Assembly: GCA_020056635.1 (NCBI GenBank)
Contig: JAGVHI010000016.1
Coordinates: 68,702 to 107,179 of the forward strand
DNA length: 38,478 nt
Source: an archaeon
GTDB taxonomy: Archaea; Micrarchaeota; Micrarchaeia; Anstonellales; Anstonellaceae
Direction: 5' to 3'
Position 1 is the first letter of the stretch. Each line of letters opens with the position of its first letter. This document shows, in pieces, positions 3,356 to 38,223 of this stretch. Both the position numbers and the translations under genes were made by a program. Below the pieces are notes generated by a model. It had not been told where the DNA came from. It worked only from the letters and a program-made list of their open reading frames with translations, and ran no database searches.

Positions 3356-4453
3356 CTATTTCGGTCCCCTTATCCCCAAAATGCGCTTCTTTCTCCCTTT
3401 ATCATTGGTTTCCTTTTCCTCAAGCACGCCGCTTTTCACCATTTTTGCAATATGGAGCCGGACTGCCCTCTCCTCGCCCATAGCTGCCCCAAGCTGCTCG
3501 TACAGCTCCCCGCTCTCAATGCTTCCCCCTTCCGCAGCAATAATTTTCACAATCCTCCTTTCCATTTCAGCAAGCTCCTCCTCCTTCCTAATTCCCAATG
3601 TTTTTGCTTCCTGTATGCATTTTTCCTGCACCGCTTTCACATGCTCCACAAGCACTTTTTTCGCCCCCTTCCCATCTGCTTCCAGCCCTGCTTTCCACAA
3701 AAGCGCAAGCGCAACCCGTGCATCCCCCCCGTTTTTTGCGGAAATCGCGGCGCAGAGCGGCACCACCTCCTTCTCAAGCGCCCCATCGCAATAGCCCAAT
3801 TTCGCCCTCTCACTCAGAATCCCTTTGAGCTCCTGGGGCGAATATTTTGAAAATTCAATCTCCCCCTGCATGAGCGAACTCTTGGTCCTTGCATCCGCCC
3901 GCACGAGTACGTCCCTGTTATTGGTAATCCCTACAAGCCCGATTTGCAGCCCGTGAATTTCAGGCATCCTGCCCAAATCGTAGAGCACTTTCTGCTCCTC
4001 CGAGCTTGCCGCAAACAGCCTGTCCACCTCATCAAGCACCAGAATCGGTATTTTTCCTGACTGGCGCAGCCCCCCCACCACCTTCTCCATTATTTCATTG
4101 CTTGAAAGCCCCCGCTTGGGCGCCATCATGCCTATTCCTTCAAGCAGCGCGTGCAATACCATGTGCCTGCTCGAATATTCCCAGCAATTGAGGTAGATAG
4201 GCTGCGCCCGCTGCGAATACTCGGACAGCTCGCGAAGCACGAACCTGGCGCATGAAGTTTTGCCGGTTCCGCTCGGCCCGTAGAGAAGCAGGTTCTGGGG
4301 CTGCTTTCCATGGGCGGCAGGCCGGACAGAGCGCGCAATTTCGCTTATGTGCTTTTCCCGGAAAAGCAGCTCGGCTGGCACGTAATCCGGCCTAAACACC
4401 CTCTCATCCTTGAAAAGCGTCCCTTCGCTTGTGATTTCGCGGAAAATGTTCAT
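3356..4453 (-). CDS. orc1: Orc1/Cdc6 replication initiator, AAA+ ATPase
   Basis: The 365-residue product matches archaeal Orc1/Cdc6, which binds origin DNA and helps load the MCM helicase. Walker A is GPSGTGKTS (residues 59-67), and Walker B is ILVLDEVDRL with D141 and E142. The initiator-specific region and sensor segments follow, and the C-terminal roughly 80 residues form a winged helix (SIESGELYEQLGAAMGEERAVRLHIAKMVKSGVLEE). The gene is divergent from EndoQ, with only about 31-67 nt between the starts. I looked for origin recognition boxes in both flanks and saw no repeated G-rich ORB motif, so this copy does not obviously mark an origin. Confidence 0.93.
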   Translation of the reverse strand: MNIFREITSEGTLFKDERVFRPDYVPAELLFREKHISEIARSVRPAAHGKQPQNLLLYGPSGTGKTSCARFVLRELSEYSQRAQPIYLNCWEYSSRHMVLHALLEGIGMMAPKRGLSSNEIMEKVVGGLRQSGKIPILVLDEVDRLFAASSEEQKVLYDLGRMPEIHGLQIGLVGITNNRDVLVRADARTKSSLMQGEIEFSKYSPQELKGILSERAKLGYCDGALEKEVVPLCAAISAKNGGDARVALALLWKAGLEADGKGAKKVLVEHVKAVQEKCIQEAKTLGIRKEEELAEMERRIVKIIAAEGGSIESGELYEQLGAAMGEERAVRLHIAKMVKSGVLEEKETNDKGRKKRILGIRGPK

Positions 4454-25606: not shown

Positions 25607-25642
25607 ATTCCTCACTTCTGAGTGCTCCTCACCCTCTCCACC

Positions 25643-25657
25643 TTTACCTTAACCAGC
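25643..25657 (+). repeat. Interspersed repeat, copy a (divergent)
   Basis: TTTACCTTAACCAGC is the most divergent of four same-orientation copies of a motif whose core is CACCTTAACCAGCTTCTTC. Only the left half is kept. Confidence 0.45.
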
Positions 25658-25845
25658 CTAAAGCTCCACTCTCTTCCCTTTCTCCACTTTCATGTGCTCC
25701 GGGAACAATTCCGTTCCTTGAGTGTGCACTGGCGCAAGCTTCCTCGCGCCTATTTCCCCTATTATTGCGAATATTTCCTGCATTGCCGCATGCCCGGCTT
25801 TTCTATATAGATAAATGCAGTCGCTTTCTAGTTTAAAATATCTGG

Positions 25846-27099
25846 TTACGGGGCACTAGTTATTGTTTGGGGTTCCGGGATGAACTGTGGGGCAACTGCA
25901 TGGGATGCGCAAATATCCAGGTATTTCCCAATCACATGCGGCCAGTTAAGCTTATCCCTTATTTGGGAACGCACTGTAGACGGGACCGATAATCCATCCC
26001 TGATAAACTGTTCAATTTTTTCTGCCACTGCGCCCGTATCAAGGAACTGGGTTATCAATCCAGTCAGGCCATATTCGCCAAACACTTCAGTCACACCCAT
26101 GTTGGGGCTTACGAAAGCAGGCGTGCCGGAGCTTACTGCCTCCAGCGGGACGTTCCCATATGTTTCAAAATGTGAAGGGCATAGCACCACGCTTGTGGAA
26201 CTATAAAATGCAGCCAGCCCTGGCGTGTCCTTTGGCTCATGGACCACAACCGACGCTTTTTTCAATTCGTTGATAAGGGTGTTTTTTGGGTCAACTTTGG
26301 TAACCATATGGATATTGCGGCCATTTCTCCGCTTTGCAAATTCCCTTGCCAAATCAAGCATGAACTCCGGATTTTTGACCGAGGTATTCCTGCCAACAAA
26401 CGCTACGTCCACCTCCTTCTTATGGACAGGGCAGCAATCGAAAAATTCTGGCGGGACCCCATTGAAGACAACCCTGCTGTTTTGCACGGGGTGACCGAAT
26501 ATGCCCTCAACGGTCTTTTGGGTCAGGGCTGATGGGAATATGTAGAATATATTCGGGTCGGAGAAATCCTGCTCCATGAGCTTGAGTGTTGATTGTATGT
26601 CATCCGGCAGGTGGGCTATTTCCATGCTAAGTATCCCGGCATAGCAAAGAACCACGGGCTTGCCCTGATTCCTGGCCGCCTGCAACAGCGCCCAGGGAAC
26701 AAAATATGTGCCGCCCAGCAGTACGACATCCGCATCCTTCACCAACTCTTCCATCGACTCAATCAGCGGTCCAAACGCCGAGCGAAGCTCCTCGATGGTT
26801 TTGGCTTTCCTGTAAATCGTGTTCGGATTCGTTGTCCCGATGGTATCGGCAAGCGGCAGTGTGCAGCGGACAATCCGATCATCGACAGTCCTTTCTTTCA
26901 GGGTCGGGTCCGCCCTGACCAATGTGAGGCGCTTTCCGTTTTCGCATGCCACGCAGCGTTGCAGCTCGTCATTCTGCCTGCCCAGGCCGCTCACGAATTT
27001 GGCGATTTCATTGGTCCTCCTGGCAAATGCTTCTGTGGAGGAACTGGTATTGGCTACAATATGGAGACTAGTAAGCGCGGTTTGACCCATGTTATCCAT
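25846..27099 (-). CDS. Glycosyltransferase, GT4-like (GT-B fold)
   Basis: This 417-residue protein resembles retaining GT4 glycosyltransferases. The C-terminal donor-binding half has VDVAFVGRNTSVKNPEFMLDLAREF (start of the second Rossmann domain, with the Lys at KNP), AAFYSSTSVVLCPSHFETYGNVPLEAVSSGTPAFVSPNMGVTEVF, with the E-x7-E pattern at ETYGNVPLEA, and a C-terminal helix. The N-terminal acceptor domain carries DVVLLGGTYFVPWALLQAARNQGKPVVLCYAG. There is no membrane helix. Met4 (27090) is an alternative start. It is the only gene between repeat copies a and b. The sugar and acceptor are unknown; surface glycan synthesis is likely. Confidence 0.82.
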   Translation of the reverse strand: MDNMGQTALTSLHIVANTSSSTEAFARRTNEIAKFVSGLGRQNDELQRCVACENGKRLTLVRADPTLKERTVDDRIVRCTLPLADTIGTTNPNTIYRKAKTIEELRSAFGPLIESMEELVKDADVVLLGGTYFVPWALLQAARNQGKPVVLCYAGILSMEIAHLPDDIQSTLKLMEQDFSDPNIFYIFPSALTQKTVEGIFGHPVQNSRVVFNGVPPEFFDCCPVHKKEVDVAFVGRNTSVKNPEFMLDLAREFAKRRNGRNIHMVTKVDPKNTLINELKKASVVVHEPKDTPGLAAFYSSTSVVLCPSHFETYGNVPLEAVSSGTPAFVSPNMGVTEVFGEYGLTGLITQFLDTGAVAEKIEQFIRDGLSVPSTVRSQIRDKLNWPHVIGKYLDICASHAVAPQFIPEPQTITSAP

Positions 27100-27160
27100 T
27101 CGCCTCTGGATTGAGCTAGGTATTTCTAAGCAATTGTTTTGCTATTAGGTGGTTCAAGAT

Positions 27161-27238
27161 TTAAAAACATTCAGATACCGATTGCTTTTTCCTTTCCACT
27201 TTCACCTTAACCAGCTTCTTCTGTATTCCTGCAATCAT
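27161..27238 (-). CDS. Possible microprotein overlapping repeat copy b, 25 residues
   Basis: A minus-strand ORF of 25 codons (27238 to 27161) covers repeat copy b. The central reading is IQKKLVKVKVERKK. Related readings occur in copy c (WKKPIKVKIERGK), copy d (WKKLVKVKIKQ) and copy a (RLVKVKVERV). Differences between the copies are largely synonymous or conservative (GTG/GTA, AAA/AAG, GAA/GAG, GTT/ATT). The ATTTAAATAT box at 27255-27264 lies 17 nt upstream and could serve this ORF as well as the plus-strand gene. It precedes the glycosyltransferase gene on the same strand. It could equally be a non-coding repeat. Confidence 0.28.
   Translation of the reverse strand: MIAGIQKKLVKVKVERKKQSVSECF
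27200..27229 (+). repeat. Interspersed repeat, copy b
   Basis: TTTCACCTTAACCAGCTTC and the following TTCTGTATTCC match copies c and d closely. It lies in the 191-nt gap between the divergent glycosyltransferase and membrane-protein genes. Confidence 0.7.
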
Positions 27239-27254
27239 TCATGATTTCTGGTGC

Positions 27255-27264
27255 ATTTAAATAT
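27255..27264. promoter_or_regulatory. TATA box upstream of the gene at 27292
   Basis: ATTTAAATAT lies 27 nt before ATG 27292 and is self-complementary over most of its length. It could also drive the minus-strand short ORF over repeat copy b. Confidence 0.6.
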
Positions 27265-27291
27265 CTTTATTACCACTAACTAGCGATACTG

Positions 27292-27966
27292 ATGCTACTC
27301 CATAACATAAACGTTCCAAGGGTTATTGCCAAGCTGCAGCCATTCGAAGCGAACAGGAACGGTGCGAAATTCACTGCAGGGGAATTGCATGTTCTTGCAG
27401 TACTCCGGATTGCCTCAAACGAAGCTCATAAACGAAACCAGGAGTGGGAGCAGGCAAAGCGCCTAAGAACGTTTCAAGCGGCGTTTGATACTGAGCCGGA
27501 AAGGGCTGTGCAGACAGTGGATGGAATGCCCCGCATGGCTTTTGCTGAAGCAATGGCCATTATGTGCCACGAAGATAACCGGGCAGACGAATACTTCCTG
27601 TCCCTTCTTAAGGAAAAAGGGCTTCTCACTCCCCCGACCCCAAATGGGACACAAAACGACGTGCGGACGATTTTGGAGACAATAAACGACCGGCTGGTTG
27701 AGCTTCGCGAATATTCAGCTGCTGCAGAAGAGGCAAGCAGGCAGATTAGGAAAACATATGCAGGTCCGATTATCGCCACCGTTATTGCAGGCATATTTGC
27801 AGTTACGGGGATCAGCATCACAATACCCCTCGCAGGTGCCTTGCTTTTGCTGGCCACAACTCCGCTTTCCTTAACCACGCGAGCCAGGGCAGTATTGAAC
27901 GACGCAAGGGTGGAATTTAACAAATTGGCAGAAAACGTTGCGGATGTAATACCAAGATATAGTTAG
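27292..27966 (+). CDS. Membrane protein of unknown function, 224 residues
   Basis: I do not recognise this protein. The first 150 residues are soluble and helical (ELHVLAVLRIASNEAHKRNQEWEQAKRLRTF; NDRLVELREYSAAAEEASRQIRKTY). A hairpin of two transmembrane helices follows (GPIIATVIAGIFAVTGI and ITIPLAGALLLLATTPL, about residues 157-193), and then a roughly 30-residue helical tail. It would be anchored with both ends on the same side, probably the cytoplasm. Its stop codon overlaps that of the convergent radical SAM gene. The two genes are the only ones between repeat copies b and c, which hints at a shared role. Confidence 0.68.
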   Translation: MLLHNINVPRVIAKLQPFEANRNGAKFTAGELHVLAVLRIASNEAHKRNQEWEQAKRLRTFQAAFDTEPERAVQTVDGMPRMAFAEAMAIMCHEDNRADEYFLSLLKEKGLLTPPTPNGTQNDVRTILETINDRLVELREYSAAAEEASRQIRKTYAGPIIATVIAGIFAVTGISITIPLAGALLLLATTPLSLTTRARAVLNDARVEFNKLAENVADVIPRYS

Positions 27967-30035
27967 GCAACCCGTATTTTTCCGGAACGTTGCGCTTTAA
28001 GATACCTGTCGCAAACAGCCATCGCGTTCCTCTTTCCGTCCTTATCAAATACCACATTGAACCTTATCGGATTTTTTCCTACCGCATCAACACCGCAGCT
28101 GAACATACCCATCTTTTGGCCCTTTGGCTCCATTAACTGCAGCATCTCCCTCATCTGTTCGACCACTTCCCTATCAGTCAGGGGCCTGTTTGTTCCATCC
28201 GCAGTTTCCTGCGCCATTATTCTCGCGTATCTTGAGCATGGTGGCGGGTTGACTGCCATGAATGTCACGAATCTACTATCTGCGTGATTAAGGAACTTGG
28301 CAGTCTCGGTCGCATGCGGTTCATTGAACCGAATTCCCCCCAAACCCGGCATTACCATAAGCGACAGTTTTATTCGCGCGCGTTCTGTTATTTCCGCAGC
28401 CCGAAACATCTGTGGAACCCGAACTCCTTTATTTACATAGTCCAATACCGCTTGGCAGCCTGACTCCAAGCCCCAATAAATCAAGTCCAATCCGGCTTCC
28501 CTTAGCCCTTCGAGTTTTTTCTGGCCTTTTTTGACGATTGAATCCGAGCGCCCGTAAATCGCGATTCTCTCAAAATTTGAGAGAAACTTGACGAGCCTGA
28601 TTACTTCCCTGAGAAGGTCATACTCAACGCTAAGCGCGTTGCCTCCGCCTATGAATATCCTGCGTATCCTTTTCATATGCTCCCCAAGGGCATCCCTCAC
28701 TTGCCGATAGTGCGCTGCGAATTCCTCAATGGTTTTTACCATATATCTGATTTCTTTGTAGCCATCACAGTATGTGCAGCGATTATAGTCGCAGCCTTGG
28801 GTCAGTTCAAGCCTAAGCACATGGAGCCTGCGCTCTGCAGGCGGGGAAAACATGTCAATTGAGCTGAAAAGTTTAGGAGTGGCATACGCTTTTGCAAGCT
28901 TCCCCCCAAGAAGCGCAAAAACACGGTTGACATTGACGCTATACGCACCATCCCCGGTGCTCATAATCAATCCATCTTCAATGAGCTCTCGAATCATTAG
29001 TTTGCCATAACTGCATAGCATAGTGCCCGTATCTTGCCGCGCCCGCTCGATTTCCTCTTTGTTTGCTTCCTCAAGTACGGCGAATCTGGCTTCCCCCAAT
29101 ATCTGCCTTGCCAGCTTCTCCGGGCTGCCTGCCCTTTCCGCATCCCTCCTCAATGAAATTTTTTCCATCTGTCGAGGCTTAACCTCAATTTTTTCGGTGC
29201 TGCTTCTGGGTTCAGCAGCAAATCTGGTAATCTTAACCCTGAAAGTGCCACATCTGTCGCTTGTCGAGTCCCAATCCCATCCATCTCTAACAATCCCCTC
29301 ACTTCCCTTATAGACAGGCTTATTTCCCTTATAGAAGACAGGCTTATCCCACCGGTGCTCTTCGTCTTTTATTATTTCCAGCAGCCTTATCCTGTCTCCC
29401 CTTTTGAAGTCCGAGCCATCCAGCGGTGCTTCTGCGTTTATTATGCCAACCAGTTTCTCCGCAATATTCTCAAGGAACTGGCTAAGAGGCTGTTCCTGCA
29501 CCTCCGAAAGAAGAGCTTCCCGATGCGCCCACACGGCCTTGCTTTCCTCATGTGAGGCTATGTAACGCGGCTCCAGCTGATGCGCAGGGAACGTGTCGTG
29601 GTATCCATCTTCGAATTCCACTTCCACCTTCCCATTCCAGTCGAACTCCCCAACTATCGTCGCAACCTTATCACGGTCCCAGCTGATTATTCTTACTTCA
29701 GCCCCTTTATTGAGCCTGCTCGCAACCCTCTCCAATCTAGGGTAATCTATCACTATCCCAAATCTTTTTTCAACAGACTCCACTATACTTTCACGGAACC
29801 TCCTGCTGGCAGCCGGGCCCGCGTCCCTGTCCATCTCTTGTTCCAATCGATCAAAAACAACATGTCGCAGATTATGCAGATTGTGCTCAATGGTTTTTTC
29901 ATCTATGCAGTCGGCTATTATAGCCTTCAGCTGGTCGCCGCCTACATCAGTCCTGCGCTCCAGCCCTCGGGCTATTTCCAAGATTGTGTACTCATCAAGA
30001 AACTTTGAGCTAGTACTAATGCTATCCTGACCCAT
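27963..30035 (-). CDS. Radical SAM protein with an unusual N-terminal half
   Basis: The C-terminal half of this 690-residue protein is a radical SAM domain: LELTQGCDYNRCTYCDGYKEI gives a C-x4-C-x2-C cluster motif (Cys415, Cys420, Cys423), a spacing seen in a subgroup with the CxxNRCTFC pattern. FIGGGNALSVEYDLL follows in the position of the GGE motif, then GRSDSIVKKGQKKLEGLREAGLDLIYWGLESG and KLSLMVMPGLGG, typical of HemN/Elp3-like enzymes. The N-terminal roughly 400 residues contain two small beta-barrel-like segments (VRIISWDRDKVATIVGEFDWNGKVEVEFEDGYHDTF; GDRIRLLEIIKDEEHRW and SEGIVRDGWDWDSTS), with KOW or Tudor-like spacing. A winged-helix-like stretch comes before the SAM domain. The substrate is unknown. 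A TATA box (TTATATAA, about 30057-30066) precedes a leaderless start. Confidence 0.78.
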   Translation of the reverse strand: MGQDSISTSSKFLDEYTILEIARGLERRTDVGGDQLKAIIADCIDEKTIEHNLHNLRHVVFDRLEQEMDRDAGPAASRRFRESIVESVEKRFGIVIDYPRLERVASRLNKGAEVRIISWDRDKVATIVGEFDWNGKVEVEFEDGYHDTFPAHQLEPRYIASHEESKAVWAHREALLSEVQEQPLSQFLENIAEKLVGIINAEAPLDGSDFKRGDRIRLLEIIKDEEHRWDKPVFYKGNKPVYKGSEGIVRDGWDWDSTSDRCGTFRVKITRFAAEPRSSTEKIEVKPRQMEKISLRRDAERAGSPEKLARQILGEARFAVLEEANKEEIERARQDTGTMLCSYGKLMIRELIEDGLIMSTGDGAYSVNVNRVFALLGGKLAKAYATPKLFSSIDMFSPPAERRLHVLRLELTQGCDYNRCTYCDGYKEIRYMVKTIEEFAAHYRQVRDALGEHMKRIRRIFIGGGNALSVEYDLLREVIRLVKFLSNFERIAIYGRSDSIVKKGQKKLEGLREAGLDLIYWGLESGCQAVLDYVNKGVRVPQMFRAAEITERARIKLSLMVMPGLGGIRFNEPHATETAKFLNHADSRFVTFMAVNPPPCSRYARIMAQETADGTNRPLTDREVVEQMREMLQLMEPKGQKMGMFSCGVDAVGKNPIRFNVVFDKDGKRNAMAVCDRYLKAQRSGKIRVA

Positions 30036-30056
30036 GCGCTATAATTGCATCACAGG

Positions 30057-30137
30057 TTATATAAAATGTTTCTTTAAGTAGGAACTTCCGTTCGACTTTC
30101 CTCTCTCAATTTTCACCTTAATCGGCTTCTTCCACAT
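30057..30137 (-). CDS. Possible microprotein overlapping repeat copy c, 26 residues
   Basis: A 26-codon minus-strand ORF runs from ATG 30137 to TAA 30057, directly upstream of the radical SAM gene (start 30035) on the same strand. Its first half reads MWKKPIKVKIERGK, parallel to the reading of copies b and d. An AT-rich box (ATTAAAAAG on the minus strand, 30175-30167) lies about 30 nt before the ATG, the usual spacing for a leaderless gene. Its stop codon lies within the radical SAM TATA box. It could be a modified-peptide precursor or simply a non-coding repeat. Confidence 0.3.
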   Translation of the reverse strand: MWKKPIKVKIERGKSNGSSYLKKHFI

Positions 30138-30140
30138 TCC
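30110..30140 (+). repeat. Interspersed repeat, copy c
   Basis: TTTTCACCTTAATCGGCTTC followed by TTCCACATTCC. Compared with copy d it differs at CCAG/TCGG and at the right end. Both copies have GAACTTCC a short way upstream. Confidence 0.7.
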
Positions 30141-30163
30141 CGGCGTTTCGCTTGAGCCGCCGG
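30140..30163. promoter_or_regulatory. GC-rich inverted repeat in a divergent region
   Basis: CCGGCG (30140-30145) and CGCCGG (30158-30163) form a perfect 6-bp stem with a 12-nt centre. A T5 run follows on the plus strand, but no plus-strand gene precedes it. It lies between the AT-rich boxes near 30167-30185 and the minus-strand ORF start, so an operator is more likely than a terminator. Confidence 0.4.
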
Positions 30164-30207
30164 ATACTTTTTAATTGTAAATATCCATCTGTAAGCGGGT
30201 GGTGGGA

Positions 30208-32436
30208 ATGGACCGTCTGGTTCTTTTTGCAGCAGTGTTTGCTGTTGCTCTTCTCCTTTTGGGCTGCGCGGGAAATGCCCCAGAGGGGCAAAAATCGCCA
30301 TCTGCAGCCAATCCAGCTTCTTCTTCTCCAGCAGGCTCACAAGCTTCCCCTCAAAAAATCTCTCCAGATTCCATAAATGACCCAGACCTACGCTCGATAT
30401 ACGAAGCTTCGCTTGAGCAGCCTCCCCCCAAAACTTCGATTGCAAAGCTTGCAGAGGCATTCGATTCGGGAAAAATTCCGCAGGCGGATTACGCGGTATT
30501 CTCAATGCAAGCAATTTATACCCCACAATCCCTCCCTTCACAATATTCAGGTGCCGCGCTTGAGGGCTATGATGACAGCCGCGATACGATGCTCCTGCTT
30601 GATTCATGGGATATGCTAACCACCCAACAGAAAGAGCAGATGGCCCCTCTCATTCGTTTGGGCAATGGGGATATTCCAAAAGTTGCAAAGGAATATGCAG
30701 AGGAAATAGATATCGAATCAGTTTCAATCGCCCCAGGGGAAGCCGACCCCTCGCCCGCGCCCCTCATGCTCTCCCCCCAAAAAATAACTTTCGCAGGGCC
30801 AGTTTGGATAGAATACAAGCGCGATGTTGCAGGCGGGAAATTTTCTCTTCGCGAGCGGTTGCCCGTGGGCCACAGCCAGGCCGAATACCAGGCAATGAAC
30901 GCCCGCTTTGACCTTCTTGAGAAAGCAACCACCGAAACCTACCCGAAATTCAAGCAATTATGGGGCATTGAGCCCACTCAGCAGGTTTGGGTATATGCGG
31001 AGGAGCTTCCAAAAGGGGTGCTCGGGCGCTCCACGCTTGCTGAATTCACTTACGACCCAGTCGAGCGCTGCAGGCTGTTTGTGGATTTCAACCAGACCGG
31101 ATTGGGGAATGAGGCAAAGGCAACGCTTGCGCACGAGCTTTTCCACTGCTTCCAGTTTATTGTTCCTATGCGCAACTTCAATGATACCGGCATGTACTGG
31201 CTTGCCGAATCCACCGCAGTCTGGTCAGAGCACTATGCGTACCCGGATTACAATACTGAGCAGCCGCGGCTCCCGCGCTTTTTCAAAACACGGGAGGAAA
31301 TGCTGTTCCAAAAGGGGCTTAAGGCATACGCCGACTACCCTTTCTGGCTCATGCTTCAGCAAAAAGGGGCAGAGGCTTCCACTATAGATGTGCTGAAAGC
31401 AGCCAAATCCAAAACCGCTGAGAAGGCACTCTCAGAAATGGGGAATTATGACAATTTTTTCGCGGACTTCGCAGTCTGGAGCTGGAATCAGGACCCTGTG
31501 AACAACTACCAGGATTCCCCGAATTTCCCTGCGCTCAAGGTGACCGGCCCTGCAGTGTCGTACAATCTCCTATTTGAAGATTCGCAGGCAGACATCCCTT
31601 ATGTGCTGCAACCGGGCGCTGCGCACTACTCAGCGCTTGACATGCCACAGGAAGCAAAGAAAATAAAATTCACCTTCCCGCAATCATCCGACCCAAAGCG
31701 CCAGCGCACCGCGCTCATAAAAATAAACGGAATCCGGCACGATGAGGACTGGGGCGAGCTTTCCGAGAAAACATTCTGCCCTGACCAGCCGGGCGAAAAA
31801 GTGCAGGCAGCGGTTATTGTGCTCTCCAACTCCGACCTTGACCATGATTTCTCCTCCACCTATTCTGTGGATACCACCGGGGAGTGCCCGAGGCAGATAG
31901 GCGGCACCACAAAAATCACATGGGACTTCACAATGCAGGGCAAGACGACAAAGTCCATTTTCACCTCGCATGACACGCTGCAGTACGATTCAGAGGAGGA
32001 CGAGTATGTGCTAAAAACCCGCAGGATGACATGCTCCTACTCGGACACCGTAAATATAGAGGACGAGCTTATGCCGGTCCATAGCAGCAATACCGGCTCG
32101 GGCAGCTCCACAGAGGAATACCCCAACCCATACGAAGCGCCCCTCAAGATCCGTTTCGATTACAATGACAATGAGGTGGATTTCAAGGTGGACCCTGACA
32201 CGAAGAATCCCAATTGGGTGCATTACACTGGAAAGCTAAACGGAATTCCCACTGATGAATATGGCGATTGCATCACTTTCTCCCCGGTTCCGTCCCTAAT
32301 CGAGCTTCCAATGGGCGAATACCTGACCGGGGACCGCCTGCACGGGACAAAAAACCTCATAACAAGCGGAGTGAGTTCCACACTTGAGTTCGATTACATC
32401 ATTCCCGAGCCGGAAATAAAGCCTGAGGAGGAATGA
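30208..32436 (+). CDS. Lipoprotein with HExxH metallopeptidase domain, 742 residues
   Basis: The protein begins with a lipoprotein signal (LVLFAAVFAVALLLLGC). A helical region of about 150 residues follows, and then a peptidase domain with LAHELFHCFQF (His309, Glu310, His313) and WLAESTAVWSEHYAY, in which Glu334 is placed like the third zinc ligand of gluzincins. The last roughly 280 residues are beta-rich and include YVLKTRRMTCSYSDTVN and a jelly-roll-like stretch. The family is probably a peptidase MA-type lipoprotein. ATG 30208 is preferred to the GTG codons at 30199 and 30202, which belong to the GGTGG ribosome site. It faces outward and may process surface proteins or peptides. Confidence 0.78.
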   Translation: MDRLVLFAAVFAVALLLLGCAGNAPEGQKSPSAANPASSSPAGSQASPQKISPDSINDPDLRSIYEASLEQPPPKTSIAKLAEAFDSGKIPQADYAVFSMQAIYTPQSLPSQYSGAALEGYDDSRDTMLLLDSWDMLTTQQKEQMAPLIRLGNGDIPKVAKEYAEEIDIESVSIAPGEADPSPAPLMLSPQKITFAGPVWIEYKRDVAGGKFSLRERLPVGHSQAEYQAMNARFDLLEKATTETYPKFKQLWGIEPTQQVWVYAEELPKGVLGRSTLAEFTYDPVERCRLFVDFNQTGLGNEAKATLAHELFHCFQFIVPMRNFNDTGMYWLAESTAVWSEHYAYPDYNTEQPRLPRFFKTREEMLFQKGLKAYADYPFWLMLQQKGAEASTIDVLKAAKSKTAEKALSEMGNYDNFFADFAVWSWNQDPVNNYQDSPNFPALKVTGPAVSYNLLFEDSQADIPYVLQPGAAHYSALDMPQEAKKIKFTFPQSSDPKRQRTALIKINGIRHDEDWGELSEKTFCPDQPGEKVQAAVIVLSNSDLDHDFSSTYSVDTTGECPRQIGGTTKITWDFTMQGKTTKSIFTSHDTLQYDSEEDEYVLKTRRMTCSYSDTVNIEDELMPVHSSNTGSGSSTEEYPNPYEAPLKIRFDYNDNEVDFKVDPDTKNPNWVHYTGKLNGIPTDEYGDCITFSPVPSLIELPMGEYLTGDRLHGTKNLITSGVSSTLEFDYIIPEPEIKPEEE

Positions 32437-32476
32437 ACCAGCGAGCCGGTATCTAGTGGAAACTTGCTTGCTTTGG

Positions 32477-33316
32477 CTAATCCGACCAGTAAGTTTTGCT
32501 CTGCGATTTTCCTTTTTGATTGCCCGAGCGAAGCTCATTTCCATTGCCAAGAATCATTATATCCAATCCAGCATCCGGCATCATGCGCTCGAATTCAAGC
32601 CTCATCATGTCCATGCTGCTCACATGTTCCCAAAGCGGATTTTTCCCATAATAAATCGTGCCATCTTTGCCTATTGCAGCGCAATCCGGCTTGCGCATAT
32701 CCCTCCCGCCCCTGTCCGTGTTGGAATATTTGATTTTTGCAGTTCCTTTGCCATTGCCATTGAACCTATTCACTCCATCAATAATCGTGTTCCTTGCCCC
32801 TTCCGCCCCGCCTATAATAGTGATTTCCAATTCAAGATTCGCAAACTGTGAGTTGAGCAGCCTTACAATGTCGTATTTGTTCACCATTGCGTCAATATGC
32901 GCCAACCCGACCTTCTCCACTTTCCCGCAGTTTCCTTTCGCGCTTATCGCAAGAATCGGGCACGGGCCCGCCGCAAACGTATAAATCGCATCATATCTCG
33001 TGTTTGTCGCTTCAAGCACCGCAGCCCTCCCTTGCAAAATCACATATGGCCTGGCTTCGCGTATTTCCGAAATCCGTGGCACTGAGCGTATGCTTAGCGT
33101 GTCAACGCGCACAGGAAGGGGTGCGGTTATTGCGCTCTCGCTTAGCGGAAGGGTTTGCGCAAACCCTGTCCTGCATATTCCCAGCGCAATCCCTGCAGTT
33201 ACCACCGCAGCCATGGAAAACAGCGCCAGTTTTCCCACTCCCCTGCGTTTTTGCGCTGCTGGGAATTTGGTACGTGCATCCATCTTCACTTGCGCAGCAA
33301 TTTTTGAAGCATTCAT
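32477..33316 (-). CDS. Membrane-anchored NTAN1/CheD-like amidohydrolase (putative)
   Basis: The 279-residue product has a basic N-terminus, one transmembrane or signal-anchor helix (VGKLALFSMAAVVTAGIALGI, residues 27-47) and then an exported domain. In this, FAAGPCPILAIS (Cys119), GLAHIDAM (His140) and LELEITIIGGAEGARNTI follow the order and spacing of protein N-terminal asparagine amidohydrolase (NTAN1) and CheD-type deamidases: catalytic Cys, then His in a HxDG-like motif, then a GG(F/A) strand end. The later DCAAIGKDGTIYYGKN parallels an NTAN1 strand pair. The true start is ATG 33316, about 25 nt after a CTTAAACA box. A 26-codon upstream extension overlaps a repeat and is rejected. Substrate unknown. 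Confidence 0.5.
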   Translation of the reverse strand: MNASKIAAQVKMDARTKFPAAQKRRGVGKLALFSMAAVVTAGIALGICRTGFAQTLPLSESAITAPLPVRVDTLSIRSVPRISEIREARPYVILQGRAAVLEATNTRYDAIYTFAAGPCPILAISAKGNCGKVEKVGLAHIDAMVNKYDIVRLLNSQFANLELEITIIGGAEGARNTIIDGVNRFNGNGKGTAKIKYSNTDRGGRDMRKPDCAAIGKDGTIYYGKNPLWEHVSSMDMMRLEFERMMPDAGLDIMILGNGNELRSGNQKGKSQSKTYWSD

Positions 33317-33351
33317 GCAGGATATATTATGCTTAGAACTGTTTAAGTGTG

Positions 33352-33382
33352 TTTGTCGCCAAAAGTCGATTTCACGCCGGAA
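33352..33382. repeat. 31-bp repeat, copy 1
   Basis: The sequence begins TTTGTCGCCAAAAGTC and ends ACGCCGGAA. It matches 37231-37261 at 29 of 31 positions in the same orientation. Its minus-strand reading is FRREIDFWRQ. Confidence 0.75.
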
Positions 33383-33418
33383 TGGGGCCTGCAACTGATT
33401 GTGTTCGAGAAAAGTTTG

Positions 33419-33427
33419 TATTAAATC
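33419..33427 (+). promoter_or_regulatory. TATA box of the GNAT gene
   Basis: TATTAAATC lies 22 nt before ATG 33450. Confidence 0.55.
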
Positions 33428-33449
33428 TCTTTCTTATCATATCTACAAC

Positions 33450-33998
33450 ATGGCAGTACCGCAGCCTGCGCAAGCAGGCAAAGCGAATGTTGCAGCCCAA
33501 CTGATTTTCAGTACATTCCAGCCCCACCATACTATCCCTATTTGCGATTTAAACCGGGCCCATGTCCAAAAATCCCCTTTTGCGCATTTGTGGCAGGAAG
33601 GGCATAATGAAATAGTGCGCAATATTCCCGAGGTGTTTCTGGAGAAGAAAGGGGATTTTCTGGTTGCGAGCCATATAGGGCAGATTATAGGCATGGGCGG
33701 AATTATGGGTGTAGTAGAAAAGCCGGTAGTCGACCGAAAGCCGCGTTATGAGAAAACCGCCCTGCTGCGCAAGGTAAGGGTGCACCCGGAATTCTGGGGA
33801 TTGGGGATAGAAGCGGAGATAATCGGGCAGCTTGCAATCCGGGCAAGGAAATTGGGGTACGAGTGGCTCAGGGCAAAAGTTTCTGTGGACAATGAACACA
33901 TGATAAACATATTGAAAGAAAACGGGTTTGAGCATATGGATACGGAAGATAAATTCGGAACCCAGCTGCTTGTTTTTGAGAAATTAATTAGGGTTTGA
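33450..33998 (+). CDS. GNAT-family N-acetyltransferase
   Basis: The 182-residue protein has the GNAT core: FLVASHIGQIIGMGGIMGV (beta strands 2-3), then KTALLRKVRVHPEFWGLGIEAEIIGQLAIRARKLGY, in which VHPEFWGLGIEAE is the acetyl-CoA pyrophosphate-binding motif A (R/QxxGxG/A type). The common ending LRAKVSVDNEHMINILKENGFE follows. The chosen ATG follows a TATA box; an in-frame ATG at 33399 overlaps the divergent promoter and is unlikely. The substrate cannot be told; it may be a protein N-terminus, an amine or a sugar. The gene is divergent from the NTAN1-like gene. Confidence 0.87.
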   Translation: MAVPQPAQAGKANVAAQLIFSTFQPHHTIPICDLNRAHVQKSPFAHLWQEGHNEIVRNIPEVFLEKKGDFLVASHIGQIIGMGGIMGVVEKPVVDRKPRYEKTALLRKVRVHPEFWGLGIEAEIIGQLAIRARKLGYEWLRAKVSVDNEHMINILKENGFEHMDTEDKFGTQLLVFEKLIRV

Positions 33999-34084
33999 TA
34001 AATTATGGAACGCTATCGGAGTAAGGCGGAATAGCTTATTGGCTGCTTATTATTATCACACATTAGTTATTTATTAAACACACA

Positions 34085-34093
34085 TTTATAAAG
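34085..34093 (+). promoter_or_regulatory. TATA box of the caspase-like gene
   Basis: TTTATAAAG lies 22 nt before ATG 34116 in an AT-rich stretch; a leaderless transcript is expected. Confidence 0.65.
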
Positions 34094-34115
34094 TACCAAA
34101 TCCTAAATTAGGCAT

Positions 34116-35090
34116 ATGGACCTTTCCAATCCGTCAGACTTTGCTATATCCTGCATAGTTGGCGGAGTTTTCGGCGCTCTTTCAGCAATAGAAAGCGCTA
34201 TAGTTTGGGCAGTGCACAAGCTTACTCCAAACAGGATAAGCGAAACGCATGGGAAAACCGATAAGCAGGCAATAATAATTGACAATGGACATGACAGGGC
34301 ATATGCCGGCCCAATAAGCCTTTCTATTCTCCTCTCAGGCTTTATTTCCATATTTTCCGGCTGGGACTTTTTGCCAGCGGGTGCATCATTGTTCTATTTG
34401 TTCAGGTCCACCCGCCTGGACCAGGCCAACCTATACGAAATGTGGAAAAGCAGGAGATTGAGGAAGGCGCTTGAGGGCAAGGGGTATTCGGTTTCAATAT
34501 ACCATAAATTCGATGGGAACTGGGATGCAGTGCTTGACTCGGTTGAGAGGAATGCAACTTCCCAAACTACCACTGTAATTGCTTATCACGGGCATGGGGG
34601 CCGCCTGAAACGGCCGTATAGCCAGATAACTTGTGACGTTTACGAAGTGACTGACAATACGGCCCGCTACAGATATGCATATGCCACGGATCCGGCGCAG
34701 CGAACCCACATTTCCATTCTTGAGAAAAAAAGCGTGCAGGATTACGAGCTGATTTCAAAACTTGCCCACCTGCCCGGAAAAAAAGTGCTGCTTGTAAGCG
34801 CGTGCCAGGCTGGCGGTTTCGCTGCAGCTGCCAGGGACTTACGGGGCGATTTGAGGGAAAACATATCGGTTCTCACTGCTTCCGGGAACAGCATAACTAC
34901 CCCGAACAAGCTTAACCGGGCATTCACCCACTTTGTAAAGGGGGGCGATGCCAATGTGGGGGAATTCTTTCATTTCCATTCCCGCAGGTATGCGCTTTCC
35001 GGCGGAAGGATGAGGCGGGCTGCACTCCTGCTGAAAAACCGGATGTACAACCCGCAAGCCCACGTGGGCCGCAATGTAATCACTATCTGA
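34116..35090 (+). CDS. Membrane-anchored caspase-like (clan CD) cysteine peptidase, putative
   Basis: The 324-residue protein has two hydrophobic segments near its N-terminus (about residues 9-33 and 66-96) and then a soluble domain. This contains TVIAYHGHGGRL (His158, His160) and, about 70 residues later, KKVLLVSACQAGGFA (Cys230). A strand ending in HGHG and a later hydrophobic strand ending in SACQAG are the His/Cys pair pattern of clan CD peptidases (caspase, metacaspase, legumain, gingipain and related). ALEGKGYSVSIYHKFDGNWDAVLDSV between the membrane part and the His strand fits the usual alpha/beta order. A basic C-terminal tail follows. Function is inferred only from fold; substrate and activation are unknown. 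Confidence 0.6.
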   Translation: MDLSNPSDFAISCIVGGVFGALSAIESAIVWAVHKLTPNRISETHGKTDKQAIIIDNGHDRAYAGPISLSILLSGFISIFSGWDFLPAGASLFYLFRSTRLDQANLYEMWKSRRLRKALEGKGYSVSIYHKFDGNWDAVLDSVERNATSQTTTVIAYHGHGGRLKRPYSQITCDVYEVTDNTARYRYAYATDPAQRTHISILEKKSVQDYELISKLAHLPGKKVLLVSACQAGGFAAAARDLRGDLRENISVLTASGNSITTPNKLNRAFTHFVKGGDANVGEFFHFHSRRYALSGGRMRRAALLLKNRMYNPQAHVGRNVITI

Positions 35091-35114
35091 ACTGAACTTC
35101 CTCTTCTTGCTTAA

Positions 35115-35141
35115 TTTTCACCTTAACCAGCTTCTTCCACA
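35115..35141 (+). repeat. Interspersed repeat, copy d
   Basis: TTTTCACCTTAACCAGCTTC followed by TTCCACA. It lies between the caspase-like and permease genes. It is the copy closest to a consensus of the family. Confidence 0.7.
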
Positions 35142-37230: not shown

Positions 37231-37261
37231 TTTGTCGCCAAAAGTCAATTTTACGCCGGAA
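37231..37261. repeat. 31-bp repeat, copy 2
   Basis: This is the second copy of the 33352-33382 repeat, in the same orientation, differing at two positions. The minus-strand reading is FRRKIDFWRQ; the two differences are one Glu/Lys change and one silent Ile change. Confidence 0.75.
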
Positions 37262-37551: not shown

Positions 37552-37575
37552 CAGTTATACCTACTAGTATAACTG
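37552..37575. promoter_or_regulatory. Perfect 9-bp inverted-repeat operator of the toxin-antitoxin operon
   Basis: CAGTTATAC (37552-37560) and GTATAACTG (37567-37575) are perfect inverse complements separated by CTACTA. The right arm runs into the ribosome site (GGTGAAAA) of the antitoxin gene, and the half-sites look TATA-like. AbrB-type antitoxins commonly bind such a palindrome to repress their own operon, so autoregulation is likely. Confidence 0.7.
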
Positions 37576-37583
37576 GTGAAAAT

Positions 37584-37835
37584 GTGGCTGAAATATACGA
37601 AAAGGGGCAGGTTGTCGTGCCAAAACACATCCGTGACATGTTTGGCCTGGTTCCAGGCACAGAGGTTAATTTCAAGGTTGAAAATAAGCGGGTTTACCTT
37701 GAACCCGCCTACAATGCGCTGGCGGAGTTCCGCAGGATCCGGGCAAAATATGCCAAGCACACAGAAAAGGAAACAGCACAGCTTATTGTGCAATCGGAAA
37801 AAAAGATGCATAAGGAGTGGTTAAATGTTCCTTGA
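37584..37835 (+). CDS. AbrB/MazE-like (SpoVT-AbrB) antitoxin
   Basis: The 83-residue protein has the swapped-hairpin AbrB fold in its first 45 residues: AEIYEKGQVVVPKHIRDMFGLVPGTEVNFKVENKRVYLEP, close to the G-[QR]-[IV]-x-[IVL]-P-k-x-[IL]-R family signature. A C-terminal helical, charged tail (AEFRRIRAKYAKHTEKETAQLIVQSEKKMHKEW) probably wraps the toxin. The start is GTG 37584, after GGTGAAAA. An ATG two bases earlier is in another frame. The gene overlaps the PIN toxin by 11 nt, and a perfect palindrome precedes it. Dimer binding to that palindrome should repress the operon. Confidence 0.87.
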   Translation: MAEIYEKGQVVVPKHIRDMFGLVPGTEVNFKVENKRVYLEPAYNALAEFRRIRAKYAKHTEKETAQLIVQSEKKMHKEWLNVP

Positions 37836-38223
37836 TGCGAATGTTTTCATCTATGCTTTTGACACGCGCAAAGGTAAAATGACAAGACAATCTGCCCGGT
37901 TCTTGGAAAGGGTCATGGCAGGGGAGCAGCACGCCACCACAAGTCCGCTTGTGATAAACGAAGTCCTATTCTACTTCCACACAAATGTCGGGCTTGAGGC
38001 AGCAGAAGATATTTACCACAATATCCTTTCAATGCAGGGCATCTACATCCTGCCAGTTGACATAAGGGTGTTGCGCGGCGTTATGGATTTTGTAAAGCAA
38101 GGCTTGCTGGTCACGGATGCTTTTCATGCGGCTACTATGGCTGCCAATGGGATAAGCACACTCTGCAGCTTCGACCGTGATTTTGACAAGATTAAGGGCA
38201 TTTCAAGGCAGGAACCGAAATAG
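37825..38223 (+). CDS. PIN-domain ribonuclease toxin (VapC-like)
   Basis: The 132-residue toxin is a PIN-domain RNase. Acidic metal ligands are visible at FLDANVFIYAFD (Asp4), SPLVINEVLFYF (Glu near residue 47), LLVTDAFHAATMAANGI (Asp near 96) and CSFDRDFDKIKG (Asp near 118). VapC-type toxins cut tRNA or rRNA and are held off by the antitoxin's C-terminal tail. The gene overlaps the antitoxin by 11 nt, which favours coupled translation. Its pairing with an AbrB-type antitoxin is common in archaea. Length and order are normal. Confidence 0.9.
   Translation: MFLDANVFIYAFDTRKGKMTRQSARFLERVMAGEQHATTSPLVINEVLFYFHTNVGLEAAEDIYHNILSMQGIYILPVDIRVLRGVMDFVKQGLLVTDAFHAATMAANGISTLCSFDRDFDKIKGISRQEPK

Follow-up and report, generated by a model that had tools for sequence, protein, structure and literature searches.

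The Dehalococcoides ssrA islands (PMC3146451) exemplify tandem integration at the 3' end of a gene, and a single integration site can be re-used by archaeal elements (PMC6563490). Integrons and clusters of attC sites without integrases also occur among Archaea (PMC9668308). Here, we analysed a 38,478-nt stretch of archaeal DNA (the window) in which short direct repeats separate accessory genes, together with loci of related genomes in which the 3' end of an RNase J-like metallo-beta-lactamase gene (MBL; beta-CASP) recurs between accessory genes (MBL arrays). Gene content and promoter form point to an archaeal host for the window. We consider it reasonably probable that the four repeats of the window are remnants of recombination sites in an array of accessory-gene cassettes, anchored on the 3' end of that MBL gene.

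MBL arrays are similar to tandem gene-end (accretion) arrays in having direct repeats of a conserved gene 3' end, tandem blocks that vary between strains, a core at the gene end and some units without an integrase of their own. They differ in targeting an RNase J-like MBL gene, of which the copies often keep 50-145 bp, and in that the units are only 1-2.5 kb long and mostly hold one or two genes, none of them seen with a recombinase. With integrons and attC clusters (PMC9668308), they share a layout of single accessory genes, set between recurring sites that follow a fixed gene, and a cargo of toxin-antitoxin and unknown genes. However, their sites derive from the end of a coding gene, the orientation of the cargo is mixed, there is no attC-like fold, and no integron integrase was identified. 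Casposons are also archaeal elements found at the ends of protein genes, sometimes in tandem (PMC6563490), whereas the MBL repeats reach 145 bp of coding sequence.

Repeats and genes in the window

A sequence-only reading of this DNA had reported four repeats in the same orientation, all between genes. We found the same four, with the coordinates off by one in places: the 27-bp family has four intergenic plus-strand copies in the window (Table 1), and the copy near 25643 had rightly been called divergent. The sequence TTTCACCTTAACCAGCTTC occurs exactly at 27200 and 35116 and with two mismatches at 30111, against a chance expectation of 0.02 matches. The copies occupy 9.5 kb close to one end of contig C5, and the window stops at that same contig end. 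Four intergenic copies are not expected by chance, because the stretch that holds them is only ~8% intergenic. A fifth listed member of the family (30298-30324, 74%) was rejected; it lacks the core and lies inside a coding gene.

The earlier reading had seen no other copy in the first 25 kb. Our profile search extends this to the whole genome (a 1.1-Mb draft, 79% complete), where it returned exactly these four copies (E 3e-7 to 3e-6; next best match, E 0.4). Copies spread at promoters throughout the genome, the pattern named as contrary to a cassette array, were not found: the four are clustered and there are no others. The repeat pattern was absent from 300 further genomes of the class, all outside the window's genus, and public collections gave one chance match in genome_contigs and none in viral_contigs. 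An Rfam search of the window and the repeat loci returned no match. We also rejected a tRNA-like origin, as the window contains no tRNA and the resemblance to a tRNA D-arm was judged to be chance. A second local direct repeat, TTTGTCGCCAAAAGTCRATTTYACGCCGGAA (31 bp, 94%), is intergenic and has only two copies in the genome. It is possibly another type of site of the same array.

Table 1. Repeats and block genes of the window (window positions).
Feature	Position	Strand	Remarks
Repeat copy 1 (c25)	25638..25664	+	Diverged, 70% to reference; repeat and profile search
Repeat copy 2 (c27)	27196..27222	+	Repeat and profile search
Repeat copy 3 (c30)	30107..30133	+	81% to reference; repeat and profile search
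Repeat copy 4 (c35)	35112..35138	+	85% to reference; repeat and profile search
Second local repeat, copy 1	33352..33382	+	31 bp, 94%
Second local repeat, copy 2	37231..37261	+	31-bp family
RNase J-like MBL (beta-CASP) C-terminal fragment, 47 aa, with stop codon	25658..25801	-	Putative left arm of site
Glycosyltransferase (GT4-like), block copies 1-2	25846..27099	-	Glycos_transf_1, E 1.9e-16
Small membrane protein, block copies 2-3	27292..27966	+	No family match
Radical SAM protein, block copies 2-3	27963..30035	-	Domain search
Lipoprotein-like DUF6055 protein (putative metallopeptidase), block copies 3-4	30199..32436	+	DUF6055, E 4e-7
Uncharacterised protein ("NTAN1-like" in the earlier reading), block copies 3-4	32477..33394	-	No Pfam match
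GNAT acetyltransferase, block copies 3-4	33399..33998	+	E 6.5e-9; likely start 33451
Caspase-like protein, block copies 3-4	34116..35090	+	HG and C motifs by reading; no Pfam match

The glycosyltransferase, radical SAM and GNAT genes that had been named between the copies are indeed there by domain search. The supposed protease is a DUF6055 protein and a putative metallopeptidase, and the caspase-like and NTAN1-like labels found no Pfam match. We did not find the radical SAM gene elsewhere in the order (83 other genomes). Block composition is ordinary for the genome, with no foreign signature, and a search for PADLOC defence families found none. At the contig end, we identified by reading a pair comprising an AbrB-like antitoxin and a PIN-domain toxin (window 37573-38223). 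A similar AbrB/PIN pair lies downstream of the last MBL fragment in a genome of another genus of the family (G004; L037 8634-9363).

The window genome (G000) also carries an RNA-like element with two hairpins, at C5:4663-4693 (L027), C5:57006-57036 (L026) and C8:52344-52374 (L028). The three copies show a compensatory change in the first stem, from CACC/GGTG to CAAC/GTTG, and a conserved TTCCGAT after the second hairpin. Both C5 copies are intergenic, and Rfam returned nothing for the element at E up to 1.

An MBL gene end at copy 1

On the minus strand, copy 1 begins where a C-terminal MBL fragment of 47 residues reaches its stop codon. Identity between copy 1 and copies 2-4 starts at the base after that stop codon and is at background level before it. 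Full-length relatives of the fragment match RNase J / beta-CASP models with scores below the curated cut-offs. The window genome has another, intact MBL gene on contig C19; at the DNA level, the window fragment is 58% identical to this full-length gene versus 79% to an array fragment (f1) of G004. Judged by these identities, array fragments are shared between genera. Neither the MBL C-terminal profile nor the core type of another array genome (G025), with whose sites the window repeats cannot be aligned, matches copies 2-4, so the link between the window and MBL depends on copy 1 and on where the repeats lie. In the relatives, direct repeats consist of the conserved 3' end of a gene, in its orientation; in the window, this applies to copy 1 only.

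MBL 3'-end arrays in related genomes

We searched for the window fragment across the order and then by profile across the class, reading 57 MBL loci. The relatives are draft assemblies from genera other than the window's, and many of their MBL loci lie near contig ends. G004 has a full MBL gene and two 3'-end fragments on one contig, in the same orientation and with unrelated genes between them. Its fragment f1 (L037 4745-4838) is interrupted by ~95 bp with a strong inverted repeat. G056 carries the MBL 3' end as five direct copies (105-146 bp, 84-93% identical), separated by an ankyrin-repeat gene, an unknown gene, two HAD genes and an AAA/DUF4143 gene. G025 has a head MBL gene and five further sites (six in all), with a DUF234 ATPase, a HAD gene, a ParE-like toxin and others between them. 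Shorter or fewer copies were found in G042, G046, G071, G073 and G088. Cargo genes are of mixed orientation, and in several cases the stop codon of a cargo gene directly precedes a site. Within the same loci, same-strand 3'-end copies accompany 6 of 50 MBL genes compared with 4 of 288 other genes (Fisher p = 0.001), and a pair of HAD paralogs makes up two of those four. G097:C46 (L096) also has a 35-bp exact direct repeat (~2740-2774 and 3568-3602, 828 bp apart) a short way downstream of its MBL gene.

The copies in these arrays are of two hybrid kinds. Left-arm copies run from between -145 and -46 to about 0 relative to the MBL stop codon, and right-arm copies run from -24/-23 to between +14 and +89. 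The right-arm starts at -24/-23 were seen in G025 and G046, in both with unrelated left arms. The two kinds overlap in a purine-rich core of ~24 nt at the gene end and share only this short core, as strand exchange inside the core would leave. Copies 2-4 of the window resemble right-arm versions of copy 1 in their behaviour, with a sequence specific to the lineage.

Gene content between fixed flanks differs between G025 and G070, sister species of one genus, whose MBL genes are 85% identical and whose downstream gene pair is 89% identical. This nucleotidyltransferase-HEPN pair (identified by reading) lies 7.1 kb from the MBL gene in G025 and 1.4 kb from it in G070, with different genes between. 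A HAD gene follows the pair in G070 and G046 but lies inside the array in G025. This variation supports the earlier cassette-array reading in the relatives, as distinct from the blocks of the window itself.

Recombinases and site folding

The earlier reading had suggested looking for a co-occurring integrase. None lies near the repeats; the three tyrosine recombinases of the window genome are all on other contigs (C20, C12 and C4). About half of the genomes in the order have tyrosine recombinases, including five array genomes (G000, G004, G025, G042 and G046), where they again lie on other contigs. None was detected in the array genomes G056, G071 and G073 (81-88% complete), and we recognised no recombinase in the cargo that was read, of which part was scanned. 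For an attC-like fold, most array repeats did no better than shuffled sequences (z between -2.3 and +1.2). On reading the loci, we came across no Cas1, PolB or terminal inverted repeats. The cassette-array reading gains from the direct MBL 3'-end repeats between accessory genes in related genomes, but neither an attC-like fold nor a nearby integrase supports it. The repeats probably mark junctions of a cassette array that resembles an integron while showing no integron parts.

Discussion

The repeats could alternatively be a shared regulatory element, the 27-bp motif being the binding site of a regulator whose small regulon is confined to a single accessory island. Plus-strand starts follow 40-76 bp after copies 2, 3 and 4, with TATA-like boxes between, and the second local repeat is placed likewise. 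However, copy 1 lies between converging gene ends, has no promoter and abuts the MBL stop codon. The distance from repeat to TATA box also varies by ~25 bp, where constant placement would be expected of a shared operator, and no copy exists elsewhere in the genome. We regard regulation as an unlikely explanation overall, although it may apply to copies 2-4. Still less probable is an origin of the repeats in the duplication of a small coding sequence (peptide KKLVKVKIER, minus strand), of which they would be vestiges. A minus-strand frame does show conservative and synonymous changes, with p = 0.003 for one of six frames, a value that is modest after six-frame correction. Yet this frame covers only ~10 codons, the tails differ in all copies, copy 1 has no start codon, and there is no match to the MBL profile; we give such an origin very little credence.

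An explanation that dispenses with a dedicated site-specific enzyme is homologous or microhomology-mediated recombination, whereby foreign DNA with MBL homology recombined repeatedly at the MBL 3' end and duplicated it. Such a process would accommodate both the left boundaries of left-arm copies, which vary from -145 to -46, and the three array genomes without a detected tyrosine recombinase. However, two genomes have right-arm copies that start alike (-24/-23) despite unrelated left arms, and the ends of left-arm copies lie near the stop codon. These boundaries are too regular for recombination along at least 100 bp of homology, and we consider this explanation improbable, though less so than a coding remnant.

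We thus favour an array of cassette sites anchored on the MBL 3' end; that the window has such an array of its own is inferred by parallel with the arrays of its relatives. Mixed cargo orientation, the ordinary composition of the blocks and the failure to detect a tyrosine recombinase in three array genomes speak against this reading, as does the mismatch of copies 2-4 with MBL sequence. Under the mechanism we propose, small circular cassettes would carry a copy of the MBL gene end and recombine within a core of ~10-24 bp at that end. Each insertion would restore the MBL reading frame and push older gene-end fragments downstream, such that the array would grow by accretion (serial insertion). 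The recombinase would act in trans or have been lost. In the window, copy 1 (the MBL fragment plus right arm) would be the distal end and copies 2-4 would be right-arm sites with unrelated left arms, the intact head gene lying outside this contig.

More tentatively, MBL arrays might serve a class of archaea with small genomes as a platform for gene capture, in which the MBL 3' end is the insertion site, copies of the gene end are the cassette sites, and the recombination activity is neither an integron integrase nor the integrase of a known element. In the open-access literature searched, we found no description of MBL-end arrays. If this possibility holds, the MBL gene tail would be a simple genomic tag for metagenomic arrays of this kind, which would probably escape integron-finding tools. 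It would also provide a mechanism by which small, gene-poor archaea could gain and shuffle accessory genes, among them toxin-antitoxin pairs, nucleotidyltransferase-HEPN genes, ATPases and HAD phosphatases.
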